Positions 336-24,131 of a stretch of DNA of 25,923 bases are shown here, piece after piece; the first letter of the stretch is position 1; each line of letters begins with the position of its first letter. A program made the position numbers and the translations under genes. This DNA is from a virus. Where the stretch lies: IMG/VR virus record IMGVR_UViG_3300031722_000149, positions 1-25,923 of that record; one strand, written 5' to 3'. The notes below the pieces were generated by a model, which did not search any database, was not told where the DNA came from, and worked only from the letters and a program-made list of their open reading frames with translations.

Positions 336-363
336 AAGCCCCTCATTGCGAGGGGCTTTTTAT
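336..363 (+). terminator. Rho-independent terminator of the + strand gene
   Basis: The perfect 8-bp stem AAGCCCCT/AGGGGCTT (336-343 with 351-358) has a 7-base loop and is followed on the + strand by TTTTATT. It starts 4 bases after the stop codon. The hairpin also lies just beyond the end of the converging - strand operon, but on that strand the tail (ACCTTTAG) is weak, so two-way action is only possible. Confidence 0.85.
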
Positions 364-956
364 TAAGCTACGCTAGACACCCCATTTCGTATACTCACTG
401 TATGTATCTTATCTGCCACAGACTCTATCAAGTCACTATGTGTAACAAAGATAATCTGCAATCCCAAAGCACTCGTAACCTCTTTCAATACTTCTGCAAA
501 CCTTGGTTGTCTATCCCTAGACAAATGCTTCATACTTTCATCCAGTAGTATTACGTTAGGGGAATCACTCAAAGACCAACAAGCTAGACGCAAAGCAATA
601 CAAGCACAATCAACAACACCACAACCCGAAGCTTCCAAGAGATCAATTTCATCTTCATCCTTAAAAAATATAAGTCGTGCAGCAGATTTACCATATGCCA
701 CTTTGAACTCTACCTTGAAGGTATATGTATCAGGAAACACAGTATCCAGAATCTTATTAACTATACCCTCTATATGAAGGATAAGTTTCTGCTGTGTCTC
801 CATAGCTGCCTGTTGGATAGCTACTTGGAGGAATTCGGTAGCTATTTGCTTCTCATGGAGGACAGCAAGTAATTCTCGTAGTTCTGTTGCTTGCTTAATG
901 AGAATCTCTTGTTGCCCCCTTTTCCTTTGAATAATAGCTTTGTACTTATCTATCAT
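363..956 (-). CDS. Rad50/SbcC-like ATPase, C-terminal half as a separate gene
   Basis: This 197-residue protein has only the C-terminal half of an SMC/Rad50-type ATPase. A helical start (residues 1-65) leads to a signature-like segment LEASGCGVVD (107-116), Walker B NVILLDE (134-140, with D139 and E140), a D-loop region SRDRQ (146-150) and the H-loop VTHSD (H173). There is no Walker A. The missing N-terminal half is a separate gene at 2477-3550. In phage T4 the equivalent gp46 is one chain that works with gp47 in end resection and recombination. The gene begins inside the stop of the preceding coiled-coil gene (ATGA, 953-956), so translation is probably coupled. It closes the operon. The family assignment is firm; that the two halves assemble into one ATPase is inferred. 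Confidence 0.88.
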   Translation of the reverse strand: MIDKYKAIIQRKRGQQEILIKQATELRELLAVLHEKQIATEFLQVAIQQAAMETQQKLILHIEGIVNKILDTVFPDTYTFKVEFKVAYGKSAARLIFFKDEDEIDLLEASGCGVVDCACIALRLACWSLSDSPNVILLDESMKHLSRDRQPRFAEVLKEVTSALGLQIIFVTHSDLIESVADKIHTVSIRNGVSSVA

Positions 957-1198
957 ACCAATCCCCAGTTAGTAAGCCCCTTCAACTCTTCATACCATTT
1001 TTCTATAAGAGCATCATTTTCCTGCATCTCTTTCTTCTTGGAGTCTATGAGGGCTTCTACTTCTTCAAGGGTAGAGACCCCATAAAGGCGTTTCCAATCC
1101 GCTTGGATAGTCTCTATAGCACCATCTGCACGAGACTTCTTCTCTTTTAATGTAGTAATCTTGGCTTTGATTTCTTCAAATCGTTTAACATCTATCAT
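953..1198 (-). CDS. Small coiled-coil protein, possible detached arm of the split Rad50
   Basis: The 81 residues are rich in Lys, Glu, Asp and Ile with heptad-like spacing (IKAKITTLKEKK and later EALIDSKKKEMQEN), so most of the chain should be a coiled coil. There are no cysteines and no catalytic motif. It overlaps the gene before it (ATGA at 1195-1198) and the Rad50 C-half after it (ATGA at 953-956). It sits where the ascending coiled-coil arm of an intact Rad50 would lie, so it may supply the arm as a separate chain. A small regulator of the nuclease is an alternative. The gene is well supported by its RBS and overlaps; the role is inferred. Confidence 0.8.
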   Translation of the reverse strand: MIDVKRFEEIKAKITTLKEKKSRADGAIETIQADWKRLYGVSTLEEVEALIDSKKKEMQENDALIEKWYEELKGLTNWGLV

Positions 1199-1341
1199 AT
1201 TGCAACTCCTATGCTATTAAAGAACAACTTGATAGTAAACACATCAAGCCACAACAAAGTAAATAATCCTGCTACAGCAAGCATTAATCCTACTATTACT
1301 GTACCCAATCCCATAGCCACCTTCGTTTCATTTGACGCCAT
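1195..1341 (-). CDS. Small membrane protein (48 aa) in the Mre11-Rad50 operon
   Basis: ATG at 1341 follows the strong RBS AGAGGTGG by 6-7 bases and begins inside the end of the Mre11 gene. The protein has a polar start (MASNETK) and a long hydrophobic stretch from about residue 10 to 31 (GLGTVIVGLMLAVAGLF and on), then LLWLDVFTIKLFFN. This fits one, perhaps two, membrane helices. Its stop overlaps the next start (ATGA at 1195-1198). A membrane protein in a recombination operon is unexpected, and no family is recognised. Confidence 0.75.
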   Translation of the reverse strand: MASNETKVAMGLGTVIVGLMLAVAGLFTLLWLDVFTIKLFFNSIGVAI

Positions 1342-2221
1342 TTCGTACCACCTCTTTAAGTTCATCTAAAATATCTTCCATACCTTTGGGAAGTTCTTTT
1401 CCCTCAAGGTAAGACAGAAGGTTTGTCATAAAAGAAAGAGACACACGATCTCCATCTTTCCTTAGCACTTCTATAGCTTCTGCTATACGAGCATCTTTCT
1501 CTAACCGTGCTGTAAGATGATCCCGTGTGAGCATCTCTATGGGGTTAGATAAAAGAATGGGTTCTACTATCTCTTTCTCAGTGTCTACGAAGTAGACGGT
1601 AGGAGTATAGTCGAACTCGTTCACAGTCTGGATAGTAGCACATCCGGGATTGATTACCCACCTATCATCTTTATGATACACAAAGCTCTTATGCATATCC
1701 CCACAAAGTACGTACTTTGTGTCAAACAAGGTAGTAAGATGTCCTGCGGTAGTAGCATTGGCTCCGAAAGGAATTTCATCCTCTGTGGGAAAGGTAAGAG
1801 TGTGTACTATGGTAATTTCGTCATTAAGCCCAGCACTGTGCTGAAATCTACCATCTATGATCTCTTCGTTTGATCGAAGGTATTGAATCTTACCCTCTAC
1901 AGCTTGCAAAATTCCTATACTTCCTTTATGTGACATATCCTCTCTATGCCAAATGAGCGAATGATTACCCCCAATCATGAACCAGTTGTTTCTGAGATAA
2001 TGCTGTACCATAAAAATAAACATAGAAATAAGCTCGTCACCTACCCGAGGAGAATCCAGAAGATCTCCTGTACATACAATGTGAGCATCCAATTTATTAG
2101 CTTTATCTATAATCTCTTTAAGTATCTTTTCTTGAAAGATCATCCATTCTTCATCTGTCTCCCGCCTACATGAGGCTACATCCATCCTTAAATGGTTATC
2201 GCCCGTGACTACATATCTCAT
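1328..2221 (-). CDS. Mre11/SbcD-like nuclease (T4 gp47 type)
   Basis: This 297-residue calcineurin-like metallophosphoesterase has all the metal-binding motifs in order: DNH (D8, H10), GDLLD (D53), GGNHS (N86, H87), VHT (H140) and CGDMH (H177). The length fits a compact phage Mre11/SbcD, which with a Rad50/SbcC partner trims DNA ends for recombination and recombination-dependent replication. Residues after about 225 are charged and helical and could form the Rad50-binding cap. The start overlaps the end of the preceding small gene (ATGA at 2218-2221). It lies between the two Rad50 half-genes. The family call is secure. Confidence 0.93.
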   Translation of the reverse strand: MRYVVTGDNHLRMDVASCRRETDEEWMIFQEKILKEIIDKANKLDAHIVCTGDLLDSPRVGDELISMFIFMVQHYLRNNWFMIGGNHSLIWHREDMSHKGSIGILQAVEGKIQYLRSNEEIIDGRFQHSAGLNDEITIVHTLTFPTEDEIPFGANATTAGHLTTLFDTKYVLCGDMHKSFVYHKDDRWVINPGCATIQTVNEFDYTPTVYFVDTEKEIVEPILLSNPIEMLTRDHLTARLEKDARIAEAIEVLRKDGDRVSLSFMTNLLSYLEGKELPKGMEDILDELKEVVRNGVK

Positions 2222-2475
2222 AATACCTCCTTAAACTCTGGAAAATAACGTACATCCTGTTCGTGGATAAAATACTTATCTACACTACCATCAGGTAATA
2301 TATCAGCAAATCTCCCATAATTATCTATTACCACACTCGGCCCAAGATAGTAAAACCACTTTCCACAGATATGTTGGAACTTTGGTGGATTATCTGGTAT
2401 AAGGCGTTCATAATAAACCTGTACTCCATACCCCATAGTATTTATGTATACTGGTGTTCGCAGTTCTTTTGCCAT
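2218..2475 (-). CDS. Conserved-looking small protein between Rad50 N-half and Mre11
   Basis: The 85-residue protein begins MAKELRTPVYI at an ATG one base after the Rad50 N-half stop (TAGTATG), which suggests re-initiation since no clear Shine-Dalgarno is present. A longer version from TTG at 2532 is possible but would overlap the conserved zinc-hook codons of its neighbour by more than 50 bases. The sequence is rich in Tyr, Phe and Pro and looks like a compact beta-rich fold. No motif is recognised. Its place in the nuclease operon suggests an accessory role. Confidence 0.72.
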   Translation of the reverse strand: MAKELRTPVYINTMGYGVQVYYERLIPDNPPKFQHICGKWFYYLGPSVVIDNYGRFADILPDGSVDKYFIHEQDVRYFPEFKEVL

Positions 2476-2476
2476 A

Positions 2477-3550
2477 CTAGAACGCACATGTAGTATGCTC
2501 AAGTGCTTTACCACACAAAGGACACACATCAACTAGGGCCACTTCCTTTTCTAAAGGATCCAATTCTTCTGTAGTATACTCAAGGATATCTGCACTATTC
2601 TTGTACTGTGTGATAGTAATAGTAGCTGTGTTTACCTCTGTCTTTATGACACCAGTATCCTCTACCATCCGGTCTATTTTGCGCACTAGTTTATCCATCA
2701 TAGATACATCTACAGAAGCCTCTTTATTGTATTGAGTGTATCTATCAATAGATGCTTGAGCATCGTTAATATAGCTACTATGCGTGTTTCGGAGGGCTAT
2801 TTGGGCCATTATAGCATCATCTAGCTCAACTGCCCTAGAGATACAGGCGCAAGTATCGAGTATTTGCCCTTGACGGCGAAGCTCATATACTGAACGCTCA
2901 ATATCTCCTGTAGACTCAAGGATAGTGTCATTCTCGCCCTCAAGTTTCTCTATCCTACCTGTGAGCTTCTCTGCCTTTTCAAGCCACTCGAATTCAGTTA
3001 GTTCCTTTTCTGCACGAACTAGATTAGTGTTAGCTGTAGTGATATCTGTCCCTATCTTGCGTCTCTTGACCTCTACAGCACCTTGATAGAGGTCTGCTTC
3101 CTCCATATTGACTATCTTGTTGAGGAAACGAGCTACATCTCCGGGGGAATCCGATAGAAGGAAAGGGGCATCCAACTGTCTCTGGATATTGATCTCAGAG
3201 AAGTTGAGTAGCTTCTGCACCTGTTCTGGCACTGTAGTACCCACTGCTTCTAGCGGAAGTTCTCCGTTGATAATATATGCATTTATACTACCACGGACAC
3301 GCTCAACTGTGGTACCATCCTCTAGGGTAAGGATGACACGGCAGTCTTCCTTTTGCTTCTTACCATTAAACGCCCACCACGATATTACAGATAAACCGGA
3401 TGGCGCGTTCTGTGTTACATAACGGATAGCTCTCATGAGTGCTGATTTACCACTATCTGATGTACCCGATATGATATTAATGCCTTTGTCGAATTCCACA
3501 AGGGTGTGCTTATGCGATTGGAAATTAAATAACTCTACGGATTTAATCAA
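2477..3550 (-). CDS. Rad50/SbcC-like ATPase, N-terminal half ending at the zinc hook
   Basis: The protein starts MIKSVELFNFQSHKHT, a typical Rad50/RecF opening, with Walker A GTSDSGKS at residues 29-36. Coiled coil follows from about residue 150 to 335. It stops 11 residues after CPLCGK (C343, C346), which matches the zinc-hook motif CxxC that normally sits at the tip of the coiled coil in the middle of Rad50. Signature, Walker B and H-loop are absent here and occur in the gene at 363-956. The 357-residue chain is therefore a half-protein ending at the hook. The start is TTG at 3550 with a good RBS (GGAG, 6 bases before). It overlaps the preceding small gene by 8 bases. Confidence 0.92.
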   Translation of the reverse strand: MIKSVELFNFQSHKHTLVEFDKGINIISGTSDSGKSALMRAIRYVTQNAPSGLSVISWWAFNGKKQKEDCRVILTLEDGTTVERVRGSINAYIINGELPLEAVGTTVPEQVQKLLNFSEINIQRQLDAPFLLSDSPGDVARFLNKIVNMEEADLYQGAVEVKRRKIGTDITTANTNLVRAEKELTEFEWLEKAEKLTGRIEKLEGENDTILESTGDIERSVYELRRQGQILDTCACISRAVELDDAIMAQIALRNTHSSYINDAQASIDRYTQYNKEASVDVSMMDKLVRKIDRMVEDTGVIKTEVNTATITITQYKNSADILEYTTEELDPLEKEVALVDVCPLCGKALEHTTCAF

Positions 3551-3716
3551 CTAGAACTCCTTTTTGACCTTCAAAGAACTCTTCTATTTCGTCCTGTAGA
3601 CCTTGAGATATATAATCATCTTGTTGTAGTTCAAACTGAACTGAACGTAAAAGATCCCTTGCTTGCCTTAAATAGCTTATCTCTTTTGATATATCCACGT
3701 AATCCTGTAAATTCAT
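3543..3716 (-). CDS. Small acidic helical protein (57 aa)
   Basis: ATG at 3716 lies behind a perfect AAGGAGG and inside the stop of the membrane-protein gene (ATGA at 3713-3716). The product (MNLQDYVDISKEISYLRQAR and on) is highly helical and acidic, with no Cys and no catalytic motif. It ends 8 bases inside the Rad50 N-half gene, so the two are probably coupled. The function is unknown. Confidence 0.75.
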   Translation of the reverse strand: MNLQDYVDISKEISYLRQARDLLRSVQFELQQDDYISQGLQDEIEEFFEGQKGVLVD

Positions 3717-4714
3717 TTTCTATCCTCCTTCAAAAATAGCGCCATAGATGCTCCTATCGGAGCTATCAGATCCACAAATATTGCAGCGAATAAACTAAGA
3801 ACAAACTGTATAACAGATGCCCTTATCCCAAAAGTCTCCTCTATCATTTCATAGAAGTTCTTTGCAGGAACCTCTGTATCACCTATAACTGACAACAAAC
3901 TTGCCTTTTTAGTAGATATAGCATTCAGCTGTGCTGTCTGCTGTGCTATATAAATCTCAGCATTATTGATATTATAAGACAAATTGTTATATTCCTTCGT
4001 CCCGTACCCCAGCGGGTATATTTGCTGATTATACCTTATAAGGGATAATTTCTTATTGTCTATAAGTAATTGTATATCCTTCTCTTGCTTTTCATACTGA
4101 GTATACAGCATTTGATTAGTGTTGTCAACTTTAGTTATATGAGTAGCTTCCTTAAAGGTTTCCTTCTGTTTGTTATACATTCCGATACTCGTCGCTGACA
4201 TACTGTATGCTGTTACTATAACCCATAGGATTCCTATACCCATGGCTTGAGGGATTTTCTTCTCTTTCCAGAATAATACTACCATAGAGGCTGCGGATAC
4301 CATGAAAAGGGAGATAAGTGCAGACAGAGAGAACGCCCAGAACAAAGGATATGATTCCAGTAAGTATGTTGATGTATTTCTGATACCTACCATAGAAGCC
4401 CCTACAGCAAGGACGGCGAATATTATACGCAATATAATAATGGACTTGTTATAGGAAGTGTCTTTTTTGATACGTTTGGGTGTCTTAATAGGAACGATTC
4501 CTAGTTTCATAGGAGTAATAGCTGAATCAGATGGTACGACCAACCTATATGTGTTGTTGCTGTTTTTAATAACAAGACTGTCCCTGCGCAGGAGATTAAG
4601 CACGTAAGATGCTTTTCTTGCAGCTAACATTAGCGAGTTGGAGATCTGTTGCACAGATAGCTCACCTGATTTGAGCAGTTCTTGTATCTTCTGTTTAGCT
4701 TCTAAATCTGTCAT
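3713..4714 (-). CDS. Winged-helix domain fused to a four-helix membrane protein
   Basis: Residues 1-60 look like a winged helix-turn-helix: ELLKSGELSVQQISNSLMLA, then ARKASYVLNLLRRDSLVIKN and a wing NTYRLV. A linker rich in Lys and Pro follows. Probable membrane helices lie near 91-111, 121-148 and 157-178; a long Gln/Lys/Asn-rich helical region covers about 180-275; a last helix lies near 300-328. The gene is the first of the Mre11-Rad50 operon and has its own consensus promoter and SD (AAGGAGC). A DNA-binding-like domain on a membrane protein could tether DNA or sense a membrane signal; both ideas are inference. No known family is recognised. Confidence 0.85.
   Translation of the reverse strand: MTDLEAKQKIQELLKSGELSVQQISNSLMLAARKASYVLNLLRRDSLVIKNSNNTYRLVVPSDSAITPMKLGIVPIKTPKRIKKDTSYNKSIIILRIIFAVLAVGASMVGIRNTSTYLLESYPLFWAFSLSALISLFMVSAASMVVLFWKEKKIPQAMGIGILWVIVTAYSMSATSIGMYNKQKETFKEATHITKVDNTNQMLYTQYEKQEKDIQLLIDNKKLSLIRYNQQIYPLGYGTKEYNNLSYNINNAEIYIAQQTAQLNAISTKKASLLSVIGDTEVPAKNFYEMIEETFGIRASVIQFVLSLFAAIFVDLIAPIGASMALFLKEDRK
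4100..4128 (-). promoter_or_regulatory. Possible internal promoter inside the membrane-protein gene
   Basis: TTGACA (4123-4128) and TATACT (4100-4105) are separated by exactly 17 bases on the - strand, within the coding sequence of the winged-helix membrane protein. It could raise expression of the downstream Rad50/Mre11 genes independently. A chance match inside coding DNA is also possible. Confidence 0.4.
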
Positions 4715-4772: not shown

Positions 4773-5522
4773 CTATATATGGATTTCAGATTCACTCAAT
4801 ATAGGACGTTCATGTTTATTGACCCTGCCATACCGTATTTCCGCCTCTTTTCTTGCATCTATAGCTTCTTCTATGGTACTAAAACATCCCAAAGAGATAA
4901 AGGATGTCTTGCTAATCCATATTCCTGTAGTCCATTTTTTTGTATCATTTCTAAAACGCACACCCACAGTACCCGAAGAATTCCTACGAGGTATCCTGTG
5001 TATTAGTTTAGACATTTCATCAGCCAGATCTATGCCACTGTAATTATCAACCGGAAAATTTAATTTGGCAAATTCTCCGAAATAATACAGTGATGCTATA
5101 TCATACGCCCGTGCGGCTTCATCTAACGTATCCCACATATTCAAAGATAATTGTTTGTAGTTTACTTTAATAAAAGCATGATATCTGGTGGGGAAAGAGC
5201 CACGTAATCTCACCCCTTTATAACCACTAGTGTTATTCTTTGGTTTGATGCAGTTTCTATTATTTCCTTTATGTGTACATCTACGCAGATTACGTTTTCT
5301 ATTATCTAATGTATTACCGTCTATATGATCTATAACAACCCCATCTCCGGGAATACACTCCATAATAAACCTATGTAAGGGTGTAGGTATAGGACTTATC
5401 TTGCTGATACTTGCATGAAAGTACGGATGCCTATTATCCTTATAAGACCATCCATGCGCCATTATCCTCTCATAGTCTTCGTCGTCAATAAGGACTTTAT
5501 ATCCCTTTATGTCTATTTCCAT
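4773..5522 (-). CDS. HNH homing endonuclease with two AP2 DNA-binding domains
   Basis: The 249-residue protein has an N-terminal beta-rich segment (IKGYKVLIDDEDYERI), an HNH nuclease core LHRFIM...DHIDGNTLDNRKRNLRRCTH (about 49-84), a first AP2 domain beginning SGYKGVRLRG (about 99-157) and a second beginning SGTVGVRF (about 182-235). This is the architecture of phage homing endonucleases, which cut intron-less or gene-less alleles and spread by repair. It is free-standing and flanked on both sides by perfect 11-bp inverted repeats (4733-4760 and 5540-5566). SD AGGAGG lies just before the ATG. A second, shorter relative lies at 20888-21403. Confidence 0.92.
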   Translation of the reverse strand: MEIDIKGYKVLIDDEDYERIMAHGWSYKDNRHPYFHASISKISPIPTPLHRFIMECIPGDGVVIDHIDGNTLDNRKRNLRRCTHKGNNRNCIKPKNNTSGYKGVRLRGSFPTRYHAFIKVNYKQLSLNMWDTLDEAARAYDIASLYYFGEFAKLNFPVDNYSGIDLADEMSKLIHRIPRRNSSGTVGVRFRNDTKKWTTGIWISKTSFISLGCFSTIEEAIDARKEAEIRYGRVNKHERPILSESEIHI

Positions 5523-6117: not shown

Positions 6118-7227
6118 TTAGTCCTCCTCGAATTTTGCTGGCCGTTGAATCTTTATGGAGTCTTCAATAGCCTCCCATGCTTCTATGACACGGCGTTTTA
6201 CTTCTTTACGAAGTTTATGTTCTTCAATATATTTGAAGAGTTCATCCCGTGTCATCTCCTCACTATCATCCCATGTAACTTTGAGAGCACCGTCTTTTTT
6301 CTTTTTCAATTCCCCTTCTGGTGTACGAAAGTTATACAGGAAATCCAACTCATCTCCGAGGCTGTCGATTCCATAGGTGAAATGTATAGTAACAAAACAC
6401 TTACGGAATGGTCTTGTGTGGCGCACTTTCTCGGCTGTAGTTTGAATTATAGCAGACACAGCACGGTCTTTAATTTCATCTTTCTGACGAAGTTTACTTA
6501 CTATACGAGCAGATTCATAGAACTTCAACGCCTCACCACCAGAAGTACGTGATTTAGGAGCGTACATTCCAGCACCTACATTAGCCCGTTCTTGTGAGAT
6601 AATATAAAGTATCGCATGCTTCTTCTTTAGTTTGCACGTAAGTTCTCTAAAGAATTCCTGACTAAGGAACTTCTGCATAGACATCATGTAACTACCCTCG
6701 TCAAACTCTTTATCCTTATCATAGGCTTCACGTCGTTTAAGTTTACGTGCTACTGTATCACAGTCTGTTACTGAGTCAAGGGAGTCTAGTACATAGACGC
6801 CACATTCATCAGGTTTAAGAGAATCCAACCACTTGTTGAGATCCCAATCCCAATCTTGTACAGTAGCTACATCTCTACCGTAATCTTCTTGTCCTCCAAA
6901 CATATCAAATCCATAGAGGCTTTGGGTATCAAATGTATTGCCATTTTCCGGGTCACAATATCGCCACCTAAATTTACCTTTGTACTTATGGTAGTTTGCA
7001 GCAATACATTCTGTTGCCTTGTATGACTTGGATGATCCTGAATCACCATGGTCACGTACTATCGTCCCTTCCAAATACCCCATACCAAATCCTGCCGCCT
7101 CACCTGCACCGACTACAAGATCTAAAATCGTGTGCCCTGTAGTGAAATAAAGGGAGGGAGCATCTTCTGTTTTGGTTGTATCTCTAGCTAGTGCTTTCTT
7201 TGCTGCTTTCATCGTTTTGTCTTCCAC
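6118..7227 (-). CDS. uvsX: RecA/UvsX-like recombinase
   Basis: The 369-residue RecA-family ATPase carries a Walker A variant GDSGSSKS (61-68), Walker B GVYVLDSLDS (143-152) and an L2-like segment SGGEALKFYESARIVSKLR typical of RecA/UvsX. Like T4 UvsX it is expected to polymerise on single-stranded DNA and drive strand invasion for recombination-dependent replication. Neighbours fit: an SSB and a UvsY-like mediator are upstream, Mre11-Rad50 downstream. The GTG start at 7227 has AAGGAGG five bases before; an ATG at codon 6 is an alternative. The Walker A departs from the usual GPESSGKT at several positions. Confidence 0.9.
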   Translation of the reverse strand: MEDKTMKAAKKALARDTTKTEDAPSLYFTTGHTILDLVVGAGEAAGFGMGYLEGTIVRDHGDSGSSKSYKATECIAANYHKYKGKFRWRYCDPENGNTFDTQSLYGFDMFGGQEDYGRDVATVQDWDWDLNKWLDSLKPDECGVYVLDSLDSVTDCDTVARKLKRREAYDKDKEFDEGSYMMSMQKFLSQEFFRELTCKLKKKHAILYIISQERANVGAGMYAPKSRTSGGEALKFYESARIVSKLRQKDEIKDRAVSAIIQTTAEKVRHTRPFRKCFVTIHFTYGIDSLGDELDFLYNFRTPEGELKKKKDGALKVTWDDSEEMTRDELFKYIEEHKLRKEVKRRVIEAWEAIEDSIKIQRPAKFEED

Positions 7228-7286: not shown

Positions 7287-8267
7287 CTACTGTGCTTTCA
7301 CACATTTCTTCCAAAGGGTGCAATCATCACAAGAATCGAAGTCCCCGTTTGATTTTCCAAAGACACCATTCTTGACAGGGCATTTAGGAACGTCTTCTTC
7401 CTCTTTAACTACTTTCTTAGCCGGGGGTGCTTCATCATCGTCATCCTCTTTAACTACTTTCTTACGCGCCGGAGGTTCATCGTCGTCTTCATCACGAGCA
7501 ACCTTCTTCCTTGCAGGAGACTCTTCCTCTTCTTCGGTATCTGCACCGTTCATAAGGGCAGCAATATCGTCGTAAGACATTTCCTCAATCAAACGATCAA
7601 ATCCGATTGCGTCGTCCTCAAACTCAGAGACATCATCTTCTCGGGCAACAAGTGTCACTGAGGAGGCTTTAATGAATTTCTTTCCATTAAAGTAATCTTC
7701 TGCTCCTATGATCTTGACAGTAAGACCCTTTTCAATATCAGCAAAGAACCGTACTTCTTTACCTTTCTTGGCGGCCTCTTTATCGGCATCATCCTGCGCT
7801 GCTTTCAAAGGTTTCTCAAAGTCTTTGGCGTTTGTCTCAAAGATCTGGAGTCCCTTATCTGGATTATCACAATCCACAATATTATAGAATAAGCGAAGCC
7901 GTGCATAAGGTACAGCATCCTTTTCTTCTTTGGTACGTGCTGTCTTATTCATTTCCTCTGCAAGTTCACAGATAGGACATGGCTTGCCATAGTTCTTGTT
8001 CGGACAAGCAATACTCTTGCGTCCTGCACCAACATCCTTATGAACATATAACGGAAGCGAATAAAAAAGATCACCTTTTTCAAGTGCTCCTTTAGCTACA
8101 AGCGGATGCTTCTTACCAATAGGGAAGGGGATAATATTAAATTTTTGTCCTCCCTCTACCAATTTGTAGAACTCATGCTTACCATCTACCTTGCTGAAAT
8201 CCAATGCATTGAAATTGTTTCCTGCACCCTTGCCCATTTGTTCGCGCTGTTTTCCCCAGTCTCCCAT
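7287..8267 (-). CDS. gp32-like single-stranded DNA-binding protein with a repeated acidic tail
   Basis: The N terminus (GNNFNALDFSKVDGKHEFYK) and the zinc site H76, C88, C97, C100 (LYVHKDVG...ACPN...KPCPIC) match T4 gp32-type SSBs, which coat ssDNA and recruit polymerase and recombinase through an acidic tail. After about residue 240 a tail has three imperfect copies of a motif with (A)RKKV or AKKV followed by an Asp/Glu run. A short Cys-containing end (CPVKNG...CDDCTLWKKC) follows, which could bind a second zinc and is not part of the usual gp32 layout. A strong terminator follows. Confidence 0.88.
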   Translation of the reverse strand: MGDWGKQREQMGKGAGNNFNALDFSKVDGKHEFYKLVEGGQKFNIIPFPIGKKHPLVAKGALEKGDLFYSLPLYVHKDVGAGRKSIACPNKNYGKPCPICELAEEMNKTARTKEEKDAVPYARLRLFYNIVDCDNPDKGLQIFETNAKDFEKPLKAAQDDADKEAAKKGKEVRFFADIEKGLTVKIIGAEDYFNGKKFIKASSVTLVAREDDVSEFEDDAIGFDRLIEEMSYDDIAALMNGADTEEEEESPARKKVARDEDDDEPPARKKVVKEDDDDEAPPAKKVVKEEEDVPKCPVKNGVFGKSNGDFDSCDDCTLWKKCVKAQ

Positions 8268-8290: not shown

Positions 8291-8740
8291 TTATCGTTTT
8301 TCGTTAAGTCTGTCTCGTGCAGACTGTGCCGACATCCCTGTGTCCCCAGAGTAATACGAGGAAATCTGTAACTTTACAAGATTATCCAACATACTCTTCT
8401 GATTATCCAAAGAACTCATAATGCCCCAAAGAGTATCCACAGCATGCTGTGCAATTTGAAGCGCCTCTCTTGCAGACGTTACCTCGCCGTCATCGTTTAA
8501 TAACGCGCTGTATGTGGCCTCTGTTGCTTTAAGATCTGTGGGGCAATTACGTCTCCAATACAAATCCCTTTCTGCCTCTTTACTTTTGAGACGATCTTTA
8601 GCAGCGTCCAGCTCACCGCGAGCGGTGCTGTACTGCTGTGCGTAGATGTAGTACTTTGTAGCAAATACTTCACACTCGTCGTCAAGATGCATTTTGTCTA
8701 CTACAAGATCATCCTCGATAGATACCCCTACGTTCTTCAT
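8291..8740 (-). CDS. Coiled-coil protein, probable UvsY-like recombination mediator
   Basis: The 149-residue protein is mostly helical. The central part (KYYIYAQQYSTARGELDAAKDRLKSKE in parts) resembles the layout of T4-type UvsY, which helps UvsX load on SSB-coated DNA. It lies directly upstream of SSB and UvsX in the same direction, the same functional set as in T4-like phages. ATGA overlap with the preceding gene (8737-8740) indicates coupling. Identity to UvsY is too low to be sure by eye; the call rests on size, helical layout and neighbours. SD AGGAGG is present. Confidence 0.62.
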   Translation of the reverse strand: MKNVGVSIEDDLVVDKMHLDDECEVFATKYYIYAQQYSTARGELDAAKDRLKSKEAERDLYWRRNCPTDLKATEATYSALLNDDGEVTSAREALQIAQHAVDTLWGIMSSLDNQKSMLDNLVKLQISSYYSGDTGMSAQSARDRLNEKR

Positions 8741-20729: not shown

Positions 20730-20894
20730 TGTGTTATTATTGTTTTTGGTATAAACACGGTCTTCTGCACCAAGAATATCTGGATGATGCCCTATAAAAA
20801 AAGCAAGTGAATCAAGTTCTTTACTTACAGTGTACTCCCCGAGAATAGTGTTACACATACGCTTAATCATTTTAAGATCTTCTGTGTCTAACAT
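20718..20894 (-). CDS. Small protein after the HNH-AP2 gene (58 aa)
   Basis: ATG 20894 overlaps the end of the HNH gene, with AGGAGAGG upstream. MLDTEDLKMIKRMCNTILGE then LAFFIGHHPDILGAEDRVYT. Its last codons encode the -35 box of the next promoter. No family is recognised. Confidence 0.66.
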   Translation of the reverse strand: MLDTEDLKMIKRMCNTILGEYTVSKELDSLAFFIGHHPDILGAEDRVYTKNNNNTLTQ

Positions 20895-21403
20895 ACATCC
20901 TCTCCTCTCGGAAAATTAGTAGCTGCGAACTCTTTATGGTAGTATATAGCAGCCATGTCATATCTTCTTGCTGGTGTTTCTGGGTTATCATAATAGCCAT
21001 CGAACTTAAGCCCATCATCAGTATTAATACTCATACAGTAATTATTATGCTCCATGCAATGGGGTACACCTTTGTACCCCGAAGAGTTTGTTCTCTGTGC
21101 TCCCCGATTTCGCATATTTTCTTTATGTGTACATCTCCTAAGATTACTCTTTTGGTTATTTAGTGTGTTCCTATCTATATGATCTATCACAACGCCACCA
21201 TGCTTTGTACACTTCATTATGAATCTATGTAAAGAAGCTGTCAAGTTTTTCTGGCCTCCTTTACGCGATCCGTTGGCTATAAAATAGGAAAGCCCATTTT
21301 TGTTAAACTCTGCTTTGTTAAAATACCATTTTCTGGTATTTATTCTTTCTACATCCTCGTCATCAACTAATACTTTATATCCTTGTATATCTAGTTCTGT
21401 CAT
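20888..21403 (-). CDS. HNH endonuclease with one AP2-like domain
   Basis: The 171-residue protein shares its layout with the protein at 4773-5522: IQGYKVLVDDEDVERI, then LHRFIMKC...DHIDRNTLNNQKSNLRRCTH (HNH core, about 58-100) and an AP2 domain from SGYKGVPHCM (about 108-166). It lacks the second AP2 domain. Free-standing homing endonucleases like this often sit next to conserved genes; here it follows DNA polymerase. SD AAGGAGG precedes ATG 21403. Confidence 0.9.
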   Translation of the reverse strand: MTELDIQGYKVLVDDEDVERINTRKWYFNKAEFNKNGLSYFIANGSRKGGQKNLTASLHRFIMKCTKHGGVVIDHIDRNTLNNQKSNLRRCTHKENMRNRGAQRTNSSGYKGVPHCMEHNNYCMSINTDDGLKFDGYYDNPETPARRYDMAAIYYHKEFAATNFPRGEDVC

Positions 21404-21412
21404 ACCGCCTCC

Positions 21413-24028
21413 TTACAAATCTCTTTCCTCTGGTTTTTTGGGTTTGCATAAATCCCCATTCAACTCACCGCAATCATACATTATTGCCCACGTTCCGTCA
21501 AGAGCGCTACGCTCTTTTTCTACTACAAGTGGGATAGTTATCCAAGTCCATTCTTTTTGTATAGCTTGCGTAGTATAAAACCAAACCCAGTAATCTATAA
21601 TACTCTCTTCATCTGGGTATACGTCCCATAGATGGCTGTCATGAATCTCGCCAATTAGTATAGACTTCCAATTTAATTCCTCTGCCTTTTCTTGCATCCT
21701 ATTTATAATCCACAATAACGCATGTGCAGCAGATCCTTGTGGTGGGCCGTTAAAGCTGTTATTGCGACTCATAGGACATGATAATCTAAAACCAGTTAAA
21801 GTATCAACATATCCTACATGCTGGTACTCCTTCCACTGTCTCTTTCGCCATTCGTCGTGTAACCCAAACATTTCTGGCCCCCAGAAACGCTCCTCTGCTT
21901 TTTGTACTACTTTTTCATATTGTGTATACTCAGTAATACCCTTACTAGCAAGGTGGGCAAGTAATGCTGGTGTTTCTACTATATACTCCCACAAAGATTT
22001 AGCTACTTGTACATAATACGATCCATACAGGAGGGCGAATGTTCCATCTCCCTTAACTGCACTTCTGTATTCTTTTGTGACCTCTGCCCTTTCCATGAGA
22101 AACAACCACACCCCAAAATCCTTATGCATGTCAGATCCCGGTTCTAGTAGGTACTCTTCAAACTTATGATCTCCGCTATAAAATAAATTAAAGTACGTTT
22201 CAGCTCCATGCAGGTCGTATTCTATAATTCTACAACCCTCTCTAGGGGCTATAATGGAACGTACAATTTTACGTTTCTCTGGATCACGCTTGTAATTATT
22301 TTGCGCGTTGGGCGAATTCGAACTTGTCCTAAATGTATCTACAGTATTGGCATTGTAGTAGGGATGCACTATATTGTCTACAGCCTCTCGCTTCCAGCCA
22401 TTTATATAGGTGGAACACATTTTAGACAACTCTCTCCATTTGAGTATTTTAAAGAGAAATGGCAGACCTATCTTTGTGAGGGATTCCTCATCCAATGACG
22501 CATTCCCTGTCTTTGTGTAACCAACTGGTTTTATTTTCATAATATCGAAAAGCAGGTGTCCTAATTGCTGCGAACTGTTAAAATTAAACGGTGTTTCTTT
22601 ATCCCATAACTTAGCTTCTTCTGTAGCAAGTATCTCCTGTTTCTTTTCTTCTACAAGTTTCTGTAACTGCTCTTCTACTTTATCGAAATCCTTAGAAGAA
22701 ACCCTAAAACCATTATACGACATCTTAGCAAGCGTAACAGAGGATTCTGTCAGAAGTTTATTTCCTACTAATTGGAATTCCTCAAATAACCCCATCTGTA
22801 GTTCATATATACGAAAGGTGAATAAAGAGTCCATAGCGCAATACTGTGTTAGTTCTCCCATAGGGGCATCATCTATTTTATTGAATGCGTTAGCACCGTA
22901 CAACTTTTCATCTGCTGTGGAACTCTTCAAATATTTATCACAGCTATCATCGTATCCTATAACACCAAAATGCTTATATACAGCGTATTTTAGTCCTGTA
23001 GCACCCCAGTTTCTTAGTTGGTGTTCACCCAGCATGGTATCATGCAGCCAGTTAAGAGGCCACTCTCCACACATAAGTTTACTCCATGTCGCTTCGAATT
23101 GAAGATTGTGGGATATCTTTTTTGTGTCTGATAATAGAAAATTTCTCCACACAAGTCTAAACATCTTATCATCAAAGAACGGAAAAGCATAAGATACACT
23201 ACCATTACTGATAGATACACATCGTATGTGGTGTCCTTTAGTATACCCCTTGCGACCACTGGTTTCGTAGTCAAAGGCGCACTTGTCCCAGCTCATCGCC
23301 TCCTCGATCCACCCCAAAGCAACATCTACGTCCTGAGTTGTTTTACACAACGAGACGTAATCCACAACTTCAACCTTCCGAGTATAAAGGGAGCAGGCGT
23401 TATAAAGGTGGTCTTTCCACAGATTAAACACCGCTCTATCACGTTCCCAGAGTGGTTTACCACGTTTTCCATCCTCATACTCTTTCGTGTCCATAAGCTC
23501 TTCCACAGACCACGTAGGGCATATCCACACTTGAAGCTCCTGATCTGGAATGCATTCTCCATAGAATTTGTTATAAGGGGTGCCTGTAAGCCGTCCACTA
23601 ATACGAGGATGGACTATGGCGTCAAACGGAGTGGATCCAAGTAGGATAACTACATTGGGGTCTAGTCTTTTAAGGAATCGTTTTAATCTAGGAGCGCAAT
23701 ACCCGACCTCCACCTTCTTCGGGTGCCGGTTTCGGGGGGTGCGACAGCCAAGGACAGGAATATAATAGCAATCTTCTTCTAGGGAGATACCTATATCGTC
23801 CAAGGCGCGGGTGAGAAATGTGTAGTCTTTACCACAGGATAATTCTCCTGTGTCATCTTGATCAAATTCGGGATGAGAGTAAAGTATAGCTATGCCAAGT
23901 TTTCCTTTACCTGTATAGGAAAGGTGCGGAGAGTGACAAAGGTCGATAAGACCACATTCTGAGCAATCCTCTCGTGCCTCTTTAATTACCTCGCCTACAT
24001 CTTTTTTGAAAAAACCCTTTTTAGCCAT
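21413..24028 (-). CDS. Family A DNA polymerase with N-terminal UDG-like domain and 3'-5' exonuclease
   Basis: The 871-residue replicative polymerase starts MAKKGFFKKD at 24028 (SD GGTGG); an upstream in-frame start at 24103 would translate the tRNA-like element. Residues 1-190 resemble family 4-type uracil-DNA glycosylases (CSECGLIDLC with C22, C25, C31, then RTPRNRHPKKVE). The exonuclease has DYETSG (D253), ISHNLQFE (N308) and YCAMD (D400). Polymerase motifs are A EYDLHGAE (D605), B RSAVKGDGTFALLYG (R655, K659) and C IHDSH (D797), where the usual HDE is HDS. A UDG-like domain on a phage Pol is known from SPO1-type polymerases. It would copy the phage genome with SSB and UvsX. Confidence 0.95.
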   Translation of the reverse strand: MAKKGFFKKDVGEVIKEAREDCSECGLIDLCHSPHLSYTGKGKLGIAILYSHPEFDQDDTGELSCGKDYTFLTRALDDIGISLEEDCYYIPVLGCRTPRNRHPKKVEVGYCAPRLKRFLKRLDPNVVILLGSTPFDAIVHPRISGRLTGTPYNKFYGECIPDQELQVWICPTWSVEELMDTKEYEDGKRGKPLWERDRAVFNLWKDHLYNACSLYTRKVEVVDYVSLCKTTQDVDVALGWIEEAMSWDKCAFDYETSGRKGYTKGHHIRCVSISNGSVSYAFPFFDDKMFRLVWRNFLLSDTKKISHNLQFEATWSKLMCGEWPLNWLHDTMLGEHQLRNWGATGLKYAVYKHFGVIGYDDSCDKYLKSSTADEKLYGANAFNKIDDAPMGELTQYCAMDSLFTFRIYELQMGLFEEFQLVGNKLLTESSVTLAKMSYNGFRVSSKDFDKVEEQLQKLVEEKKQEILATEEAKLWDKETPFNFNSSQQLGHLLFDIMKIKPVGYTKTGNASLDEESLTKIGLPFLFKILKWRELSKMCSTYINGWKREAVDNIVHPYYNANTVDTFRTSSNSPNAQNNYKRDPEKRKIVRSIIAPREGCRIIEYDLHGAETYFNLFYSGDHKFEEYLLEPGSDMHKDFGVWLFLMERAEVTKEYRSAVKGDGTFALLYGSYYVQVAKSLWEYIVETPALLAHLASKGITEYTQYEKVVQKAEERFWGPEMFGLHDEWRKRQWKEYQHVGYVDTLTGFRLSCPMSRNNSFNGPPQGSAAHALLWIINRMQEKAEELNWKSILIGEIHDSHLWDVYPDEESIIDYWVWFYTTQAIQKEWTWITIPLVVEKERSALDGTWAIMYDCGELNGDLCKPKKPEERDL
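21473..21501 (-). promoter_or_regulatory. Possible promoter for the HNH-AP2 gene inside the polymerase 3' end
   Basis: TTGACG (21496-21501), 17-base spacer, TATGAT (21473-21478) lie about 70 bases before the HNH start. A homing endonuclease with its own promoter would be usual, but the match is within coding DNA and may be chance. Confidence 0.42.
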
Positions 24029-24048
24029 TATATTACCACCTTGTTGTA

Positions 24049-24131
24049 TGAAACCTGCGGGGGTCGAACCCGCTCTACGTCGGCGTGATTTACCACGTGC
24101 CAACCGTTGTGCTTCCGGTACACTATGATTC
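24049..24131 (-). tRNA. Degenerate tRNA-like element just before the polymerase gene
   Basis: A perfect T arm GCGGG-TTCGACC-CCCGC (24057-24073), a 5-base variable loop GTAGA and a five-pair anticodon stem GTTGG/CCGAC (24100-24104 with 24079-24083, one G-U) are spaced exactly as in a tRNA. The anticodon loop, however, is 16 bases instead of 7 and contains a small inner stem CGTG/CACG. A 5' acceptor strand fits the 3' strand AGGTTTC only with mismatches. It may be a tRNA relic, a tRNA with an insertion in the anticodon loop, or a tRNA mimic. The amino acid cannot be assigned. Confidence 0.5.

Follow-up and report, generated by a model that had tools for sequence, protein, structure and literature searches.

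Cellular Rad50 is normally one long hairpin-shaped protein that acts in DNA-break repair, and it belongs to the most conserved DNA-repair machines, with a continuous head-hook-head arm that is thought to be central to its function. The window analysed here, a 25,923-nucleotide stretch of viral DNA (IMGVR_UViG_3300031722_000149), raises the question of whether a working Mre11-Rad50 complex can be built from a Rad50 that is encoded in pieces, with its zinc hook at the end of a chain. The reading we favor, with a probability of about 80%, is that the window encodes a functional three-chain Mre11-Rad50 in which a small protein, here called s, and the first helix of the Rad50 C-half would make up the descending arm, its assembly and activity being predicted from sequence comparison.

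Rad50 is encoded in two halves with Mre11 between them

All genes of the set lie on the minus strand. The Rad50 N-half (2477..3550; 357 aa) starts at a TTG codon preceded by AAAGGAG and carries Walker A (GTSDSGKS), the Q-loop (Q125) and an ascending coiled-coil arm with a terminal hook, whose CPLC motif (343-346) is followed by exactly 11 residues (GKALEHTTCAF) and a stop codon. The C-half (363..956; 197 aa) provides the last return-arm helix, a signature-like GCG (ASGCGVVD), Walker B (VILLDE), the D-loop and the H-loop (FVTH), and inspection of its sequence found no Walker A. Together the two halves hold the complete Rad50 motif set, each motif once. Between them lie an 85-aa ORF (2218..2475), a Mre11/SbcD-like nuclease (1328..2221; 297 aa), a 56-aa membrane micro-protein (1195..1365) and s, a small two-helix coiled-coil protein (953..1198; 81 aa) that directly precedes the C-half, with Mre11 upstream, and is the proposed descending (return) arm. 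The original prediction of a Rad50 split at the zinc hook, with Walker A confined to one half, Mre11 between the halves and a separate coiled coil just before the second, is thus borne out, and every ORF was recovered where it had been placed. Its further statement that all starts overlap holds for most of the set: stop and start codons overlap as ATGA at the 85-aa/Mre11, membrane ORF/s and s/C-half junctions, and Mre11 and the membrane ORF share 38 nt, but the 85-aa ORF, which begins with ATG, does not overlap the N-half.

Profile searches matched the N-half to AAA_23 (E 1.1e-11) and phrog_16465 (E 4.5e-31), the C-half to phrog_15167 (E 1.3e-27), and Mre11 to Metallophos and phrog_100 (E 9.5e-7); family and PHROG searches returned no match for the 85-aa ORF. 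More generally, PHROGs 16465 ('exonuclease'), 15167 ('ATPase') and 18563 (unknown) already cover N-halves, C-halves and part of the s proteins of phages. They are filed as separate families, and no entry in the library connects them as parts of a single protein.

The split set forms a large family in phages

A search of phages at the DNA level gave no matches, nor did tblastn with Mre11 in phages at 1e-5. A genome scan was made with alignment A2 (the deep alignment A3 gave no usable pattern), and its weakest matches (L226-L235), which look like other AAA ATPases and lack s and Mre11, served as a negative group. The same gene order, which had been suggested as something to seek in other phages, was found. 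The three-piece design is repeated in more than a hundred phage loci, and 94 non-redundant viral loci have both Rad50 halves, arranged as N-M-s-C in 53, N-s-C-M in 40 and with a Mre11/N fusion in 1. Each of the 94 encodes a single s, whose gene usually abuts that of the C-half, and about 44 bacterial loci with both halves always include s as well. A reversed-protein control for the s search gave 2-3 matches in 16,506. When the window 81-mer and gp34 of a Bacillus phage were used as seeds, their matches (104 and 106) had 102 members in common, a convergence that indicates that the s proteins are one family. Among 18 records in which the genes are dispersed, most have both N and C, and 6 have no detectable s.

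Since no viral ORF matched both the N-half and the C-half profiles, we class the set as a split variant and not as ordinary Mre11-Rad50. In the negative group, a single 628-aa ORF (L226) weakly matched both profiles and was lost at a stricter cut-off. A literature search found no matching description of a three-piece Rad50, and the relatives of the window set constitute a large, undescribed family.

The two other small proteins of the window, earlier noted as interleaved with the set, are not part of the machine in general: in many relatives the gaps between the genes are too short to hold them. In one such locus (L089), the N-half and Mre11 are spaced by -1 nt, and the 237 nt between Mre11 and the C-half hold s alone. 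Variants of both are carried by another relative (L003). The 85-aa and 56-aa membrane micro-proteins are probably passengers.

Sequence and fold matches to Rad50 and Mre11

A CxxC motif lies 4-19 residues before the C-terminus in 98 of 101 viral N-halves, and 34 of 35 bacterial N-halves have a CxxC hook; among the few members that lack the hook are Magritte and L062, which has CPFH. Across 54 N-half sequences, G29, G34, K35, Q125, C343 and C346 are invariant. In the C-half, D139 and E140 are invariant, and G111, G113, R123, Q167 and H173 are nearly so. The family signature reads GGG, not SGG[EQ], and the window has Cys (GCG) where nearly all relatives have Gly. The Mre11 metal ligands D8, H10, D53, H140 and H177 are each kept in at least 101 of 104 sequences; N86 is found in 78 (Q in 24) and H175 in 76, with D in the other 28, including the window. 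The N-half end (CPLCGKALEHTTC) might also be read as a self-contained CCHC zinc finger, but this is not a general feature: many relatives stop 4-6 residues past CxxC and have neither Cys nor His in that tail.

An AF2 model of the window N-half (mean pLDDT 81.8) has a single straight helix (189-338) running to the hook, with no internal hairpin, and its fold matches the Rad50 N-lobe. Among solved structures, the C-half has its best relatives in the C-lobe chains of P. furiosus Rad50 (E 1e-19 to 1e-20), and solved Rad50 is the top PDB relative for both half profiles. The set thus shares with Mre11-Rad50/SbcCD (P. furiosus and M. jannaschii Rad50; SbcC-SbcD) its ATPase lobes, zinc-hook motif, coiled-coil arm and calcineurin-fold nuclease partner. 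Canonical Rad50/SbcC, in contrast, is a single chain that carries the hook at its midpoint, and here the N-half, s and C-half are separate, the hook is at a chain end and the signature is GGG. The two halves could join without a covalent link, because the two lobes of the P. furiosus Rad50 head are individual chains in solved structures (1f2t, 1ii8). In that crystallised catalytic domain (1f2t, 1f2u, 1ii8) the N-lobe and C-lobe make up one head, although it is a laboratory construct that lacks full arms, hook and s.

A natural fusion places s after the hook

In one viral locus (L152), a single 771-aa chain comprises Mre11 (1-302), the N-half (313-639; hook CPLC at 630) and, after the hook, a domain resembling s (683-761; E about 1e-9); the C-half is a separate chain. 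This fusion was aligned with N-halves only. Its predicted structure, of poor quality (pLDDT 65.9, pTM 0.32), has a helix-hook-helices layout. It is because L152 fuses the s-like domain after the hook that we place s on the return arm. The original proposal that an extra protein, here the small coiled coil s, provides this arm gains strong support from family comparison, locus co-occurrence and this fusion. Mre11 is likewise joined to the Rad50 N-terminus in Mimivirus R555 and other Mre11/Rad50 fusions (PMC3175470), among which the phage fusion 0305phi8-36 is reported to lack one P-loop segment; the passages of that source on these proteins describe fusion, not fission, and contain neither a split nor a small third chain.

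The N arms range from 145 to about 350 residues, and the lengths of s and the C-half hardly vary, so that in long-armed members pairing cannot extend along the full arm. The shortest N arms (about 145-154 residues) come close to s (77-81) plus the first C-half helix (about 60). The independence of s length from N-arm length would also suit a working split Mre11-Rad50 in which s sits on the head or hook as an accessory, whether assembly factor, clamp or regulator, and so would its alignment, in which a break between two helices might let it fold back on itself, and the dispersed genomes that have no clear s. A PDB search with s returned generic coiled coils only. An accessory role is nonetheless unlikely, given that s occurs in every compact locus and is covalently attached after the hook in L152.

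Genomic setting in phages and Tissierellales

Upstream of the set, in the same gene cluster and on the same strand, the window encodes a UvsX/RecA-like recombinase (6118..7227), and further genes on that strand encode a gp32-like single-strand binding protein (7287..8267; a weak match, E 0.0056) and a UvsY-like recombination mediator (8291..8740; phrog_231, E 2.1e-6). The neighbours scanned in the window are replication, recombination and nucleotide genes. T4 gp46/gp47, a phage end-processing complex of recombination-dependent replication, is found with UvsX, UvsY and gp32; gp46, however, is a single chain, and the window proteins reach phrog_77 weakly at best (C-half, E 0.017).

The three-piece Rad50 is not a phage-only oddity, as it is also a recA-adjacent chromosomal module in Tissierellales, with the order recA-mre11-N-s-C-rny. 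A split C-half is present in 107 of 199 Tissierellales genomes, canonical SbcD in 69 and both in 2, counted without regard to phylogeny. This exclusion test was based on SbcD because the curated cut-off for SbcC is too strict, being met in 1 of 14 controls.

Might the set instead be a defence system of the SMC-like type, such as Lamassu or Gabija? The N-lobe does match LmuB, GajA and PtuA models, but these matches are confined to the shared ATPase lobe, and no effector partner (LmuA nuclease, GajB helicase) was found among the window neighbours scanned. The SbcD-like Mre11 keeps its metal ligands, the set is complementary to SbcD, and it lies with uvsX/uvsY/ssb in the phage and with recA and rny in bacteria, all of which makes a defence role highly improbable.

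That a split intein or trans-splicing reunites the halves in a single chain, post-transcriptionally or post-translationally, is scarcely credible. Intein-like insertions do occur inside the N-half P-loop of three relatives (L056, L062, L082), but they are complete, in cis and at another site; N-halves end in hook tails and C-halves start with helix starts, with no intein ends, and what follows the hook in the L152 fusion is s, not the C-half.

The split itself is neither a sequencing error, because a related contig (IMGVR_UViG_3300030019_000715; identity to the window 98% for s, 96% for the N-half, 95% for the C-half and 87% for Mre11) keeps the gene order and every frame intact and a second contig carries the N-half at 100% identity, nor chance, because more than 130 divergent loci show the same arrangement with unbroken frames. 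Decay or mis-assembly (a frameshift, pseudogene or assembly error), for which the metagenomic and probably fragmentary nature of the source contig might speak, is refuted by these intact frames and by the other genes that sit between the halves, and its probability is negligible.

A proposed three-chain Mre11-Rad50

The three-chain reading has its observed basis in sequence anatomy, family conservation, linkage, fusion and mutual exclusion with SbcD; chain assembly, arm pairing, zinc binding and the ATPase and nuclease activities are predictions from sequence. Points that weigh against it are the poor L152 model, the variable N arms beside a nearly constant s and C-half, the few members with no hook or no detectable s, the Cys in the window signature and an exclusion count made without regard to phylogeny. 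The N-half would supply the Walker-A lobe and the entire ascending arm, ending in the zinc hook, and s and the N-terminal helix of the C-half would pack on it as the descending arm. The signature/Walker-B/H-loop lobe of the C-half would bind the N-lobe non-covalently to complete an ABC head. A pair of these heads and a Mre11 dimer would give the ATP-gated nuclease typical of such complexes, and zinc would be shared between two terminal hooks. In the window phage this complex would act with UvsX, UvsY and the gp32-like protein in DNA-end processing for recombination-dependent replication, as gp46/gp47 does in T4, and in Tissierellales it would be the resident end-processing complex that replaces SbcCD.

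More tentatively, the family may be an old, separate Mre11-Rad50 lineage with a detachable descending-arm subunit, s, at which its ring can open; it would have spread among phages and been adopted by Tissierellales as their sole SbcCD. This is possible, if doubtful. If it is true, the opening at s between heads and hook would be a DNA-entry gate that one-chain Rad50 does not have. That a Rad50 interrupted at the hook occurs naturally and widely suggests that a covalent link is not essential to the hairpin, and its small separable parts could be used to test communication between arm, hook and head. The set would also provide a replacement for SbcCD beside recA in an order whose members would otherwise score as lacking SbcCD, and many phage proteins now listed as unrelated or hypothetical gain a proposed function from it.

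A Rad50 split at the zinc hook

The window carries, on its minus strand, a Rad50 N-half (2477-3550; TTG start after AAAGGAG, GTSDSGKS, a Q-loop and the C-terminal end VCPLCGKALEHTTCAF) and a separate C-half (363-956) that has ASGCGVVD, VILLDE and FVTH and is without Walker A. Between them, on the same strand, lie Mre11 (1328-2221), the 81-residue coiled-coil protein s (953-1198), an 85-residue ORF and a 56-residue membrane protein, most of these genes being linked by stop/start codon overlaps. All ORFs of the original prediction were recovered, with unchanged coordinates. A sequencing error as the source of the split is opposed by a relative contig (IMGVR_UViG_3300030019_000715) in which gene order is identical and every frame is open, at 98% (s), 96% (N-half), 95% (C-half) and 87% (Mre11) identity. 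The signature motif of the window clade is ASGCGVV (window 363-956; related locus L002:6001-6591) and that of nearly all relatives SGGG; motif V of the window Mre11 (1328-2221) is GDMH, not GHxH, an Asp common to 28 of 104 relatives.

No description of a split Rad50/SbcC was found in the open-access literature searched. Two papers describe Mre11/Rad50 fusions, including a phage fusion without one P-loop segment (PMC3175470), and SbcC/SbcD as nearly universal in jumbo phages (PMC7824862); a term search of PMC7824862 gave no mention of a split.

The split forms a phage family

Relatives occur in Bacillus phage vB_BboS-125 (gp32, an N-half ending in CPLCEQTHKGGGC, plus gp34 and gp35), Microbacterium phage Magritte (genes 2 and 155), Tunturiibacter phage Tunturi_5 and a 485-kb uncultured phage. 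Three viral-contig scans seeded with these relatives added 181 loci, and profiles built from viral loci gave 101 non-redundant N-halves and 109 C-halves. The search of other phages that the original prediction had proposed gave 94 non-redundant viral loci with both halves; split Rad50 is a family, not an accident. No ORF in the viral loci searched matched both half-profiles, and this is not due to limited profile reach, since profiles of this kind do pick up solved Rad50 constructs in which one chain holds both lobes. CxxC falls within the last 30 residues of 98/101 N-halves, followed by 4-19 residues. Of the other three, Magritte lacks a hook, L062 has a CPFH variant, and in L152 more protein follows the hook.

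Three phage relatives carry intein-like insertions within the N-half P-loop, placed at the Walker A lysine/serine or close to it (L056:4257-6263, L062:3029-5383, L082:1536-3740). Extra stretches at the C-half N-termini of L184, L037, L077, L135, L027 and L011 (e.g. MSLKDLL, MGLTELF, MGSLKDVF, MPSLKDMF) look like short clamp-binding peptides.

A proposed third chain accompanies the two halves

The small protein s (77-81 residues), positioned directly ahead of the C-half, is present in 94/94 of the two-half loci, ordered N-Mre11-s-C in 53, N-s-C-Mre11 in 40, plus L152; it lies within 30 nt of the C-half in 63/94. Each of 108 s-bearing loci has exactly one copy, against a background of 2-3 matches in 16,506 reversed proteins. 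Iterated profiles seeded separately with the window protein and vB_BboS-125 gp34 converged (102 common to sets of 104 and 106). Eighteen genomes with dispersed genes were searched over the whole record: 17 have the C-half and 16 the N-half, and 12 hold an s candidate, some of them weak. The single-chain fusion of L152 joins Mre11 (1-302) to an N-half (313-639, CPLC at 630). Beyond CPLC, residues 683-761 resemble s (E about 1e-9), a match backed by an independent profile comparison (E 1.6e-4).

In the AF2 model (54 relatives; mean pLDDT 81.8), the N-half forms a lobe, a helix (150-185) and one helix (189-338) reaching the hook; the model matches the fold of the Rad50 N-lobe. The best solved relatives of the C-half profile are P. 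furiosus Rad50 C-lobe chains; several of them come from crystals in which N and C were separate chains, a laboratory precedent for non-covalent joining. The L152 model, poor overall (pTM 0.32), places helix 470-607, the hook, then helices 639-665, 669-722 and 726-767. N-arms span 145-248 residues in the aligned set, and s plus the first C-half helix about 140; this mismatch in long-armed members is a weak point of the three-chain reading.

Judged by sequence, the split set behaves as Mre11-Rad50 in every test made, and one tested trait differs: canonical Rad50 is a single chain, whereas the split set forms separate chains. The constancy of s and the s-like stretch after the L152 hook support the predicted three-chain reading, in which N-half, s and C-half would assemble with Mre11. 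Among the interleaved genes, the Rad50 halves, s and Mre11 stand as putative machine parts; the 85-residue and membrane proteins, which the prediction had described as interleaved, are probably passengers.

Further genes of the window cluster encode a UvsX-like recombinase, a UvsY-like mediator, dUTPase, NrdD and a family A DNA polymerase, and one more product weakly matches gp32; T4-style recombination-dependent replication would be expected to have such a set. The polymerase (21413-24103) has an N-terminal uracil-DNA-glycosylase-like domain. Free-standing HNH endonuclease genes lie at 4773-5522 and 20888-21403, one with AP2; in vB_BboS-125 (L005) the AP2 gene gp33 sits between the N-half and s. 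At 3713-4714, immediately before the N-half operon on its upstream side, lies the gene for a 333-residue multi-pass membrane protein that also has a helical stretch; it is conserved in related locus L003 and has no family match.

A chromosomal version in Tissierellales

Scanning of species genomes yielded about 35 true bacterial loci, mostly Bacillota. The Tissierellales gene order is rimO, pgsA and cinA-like genes (apparent identities), then recA-mre11-N-s-C-rny. Curated models confirm recA and rny, and recA-M-N-s-C-rny recurs in 18 loci. The module is chromosomal and housekeeping-like there. Across 199 Tissierellales genomes, the split C-half (E < 1e-30) occurs in 107 and SbcD (above its curated cut-off) in 69, with both in 2 and neither in 25 (Fisher p 3.5e-29, uncorrected for relatedness). 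SbcD exceeded its cut-off in only 3 of 30 genomes searched (Dethiobacter, Brevibacillus and Sutcliffiella), where an SbcC search found ORFs of about 1150-1230 residues matching both SbcC ends. A midpoint-rooted tree built on both halves unites the chromosomal loci, L219 and L221 in a single clade (support 0.994) lying within phage diversity. This placement suggests that split Rad50 may have been transferred from phages to bacterial chromosomes.
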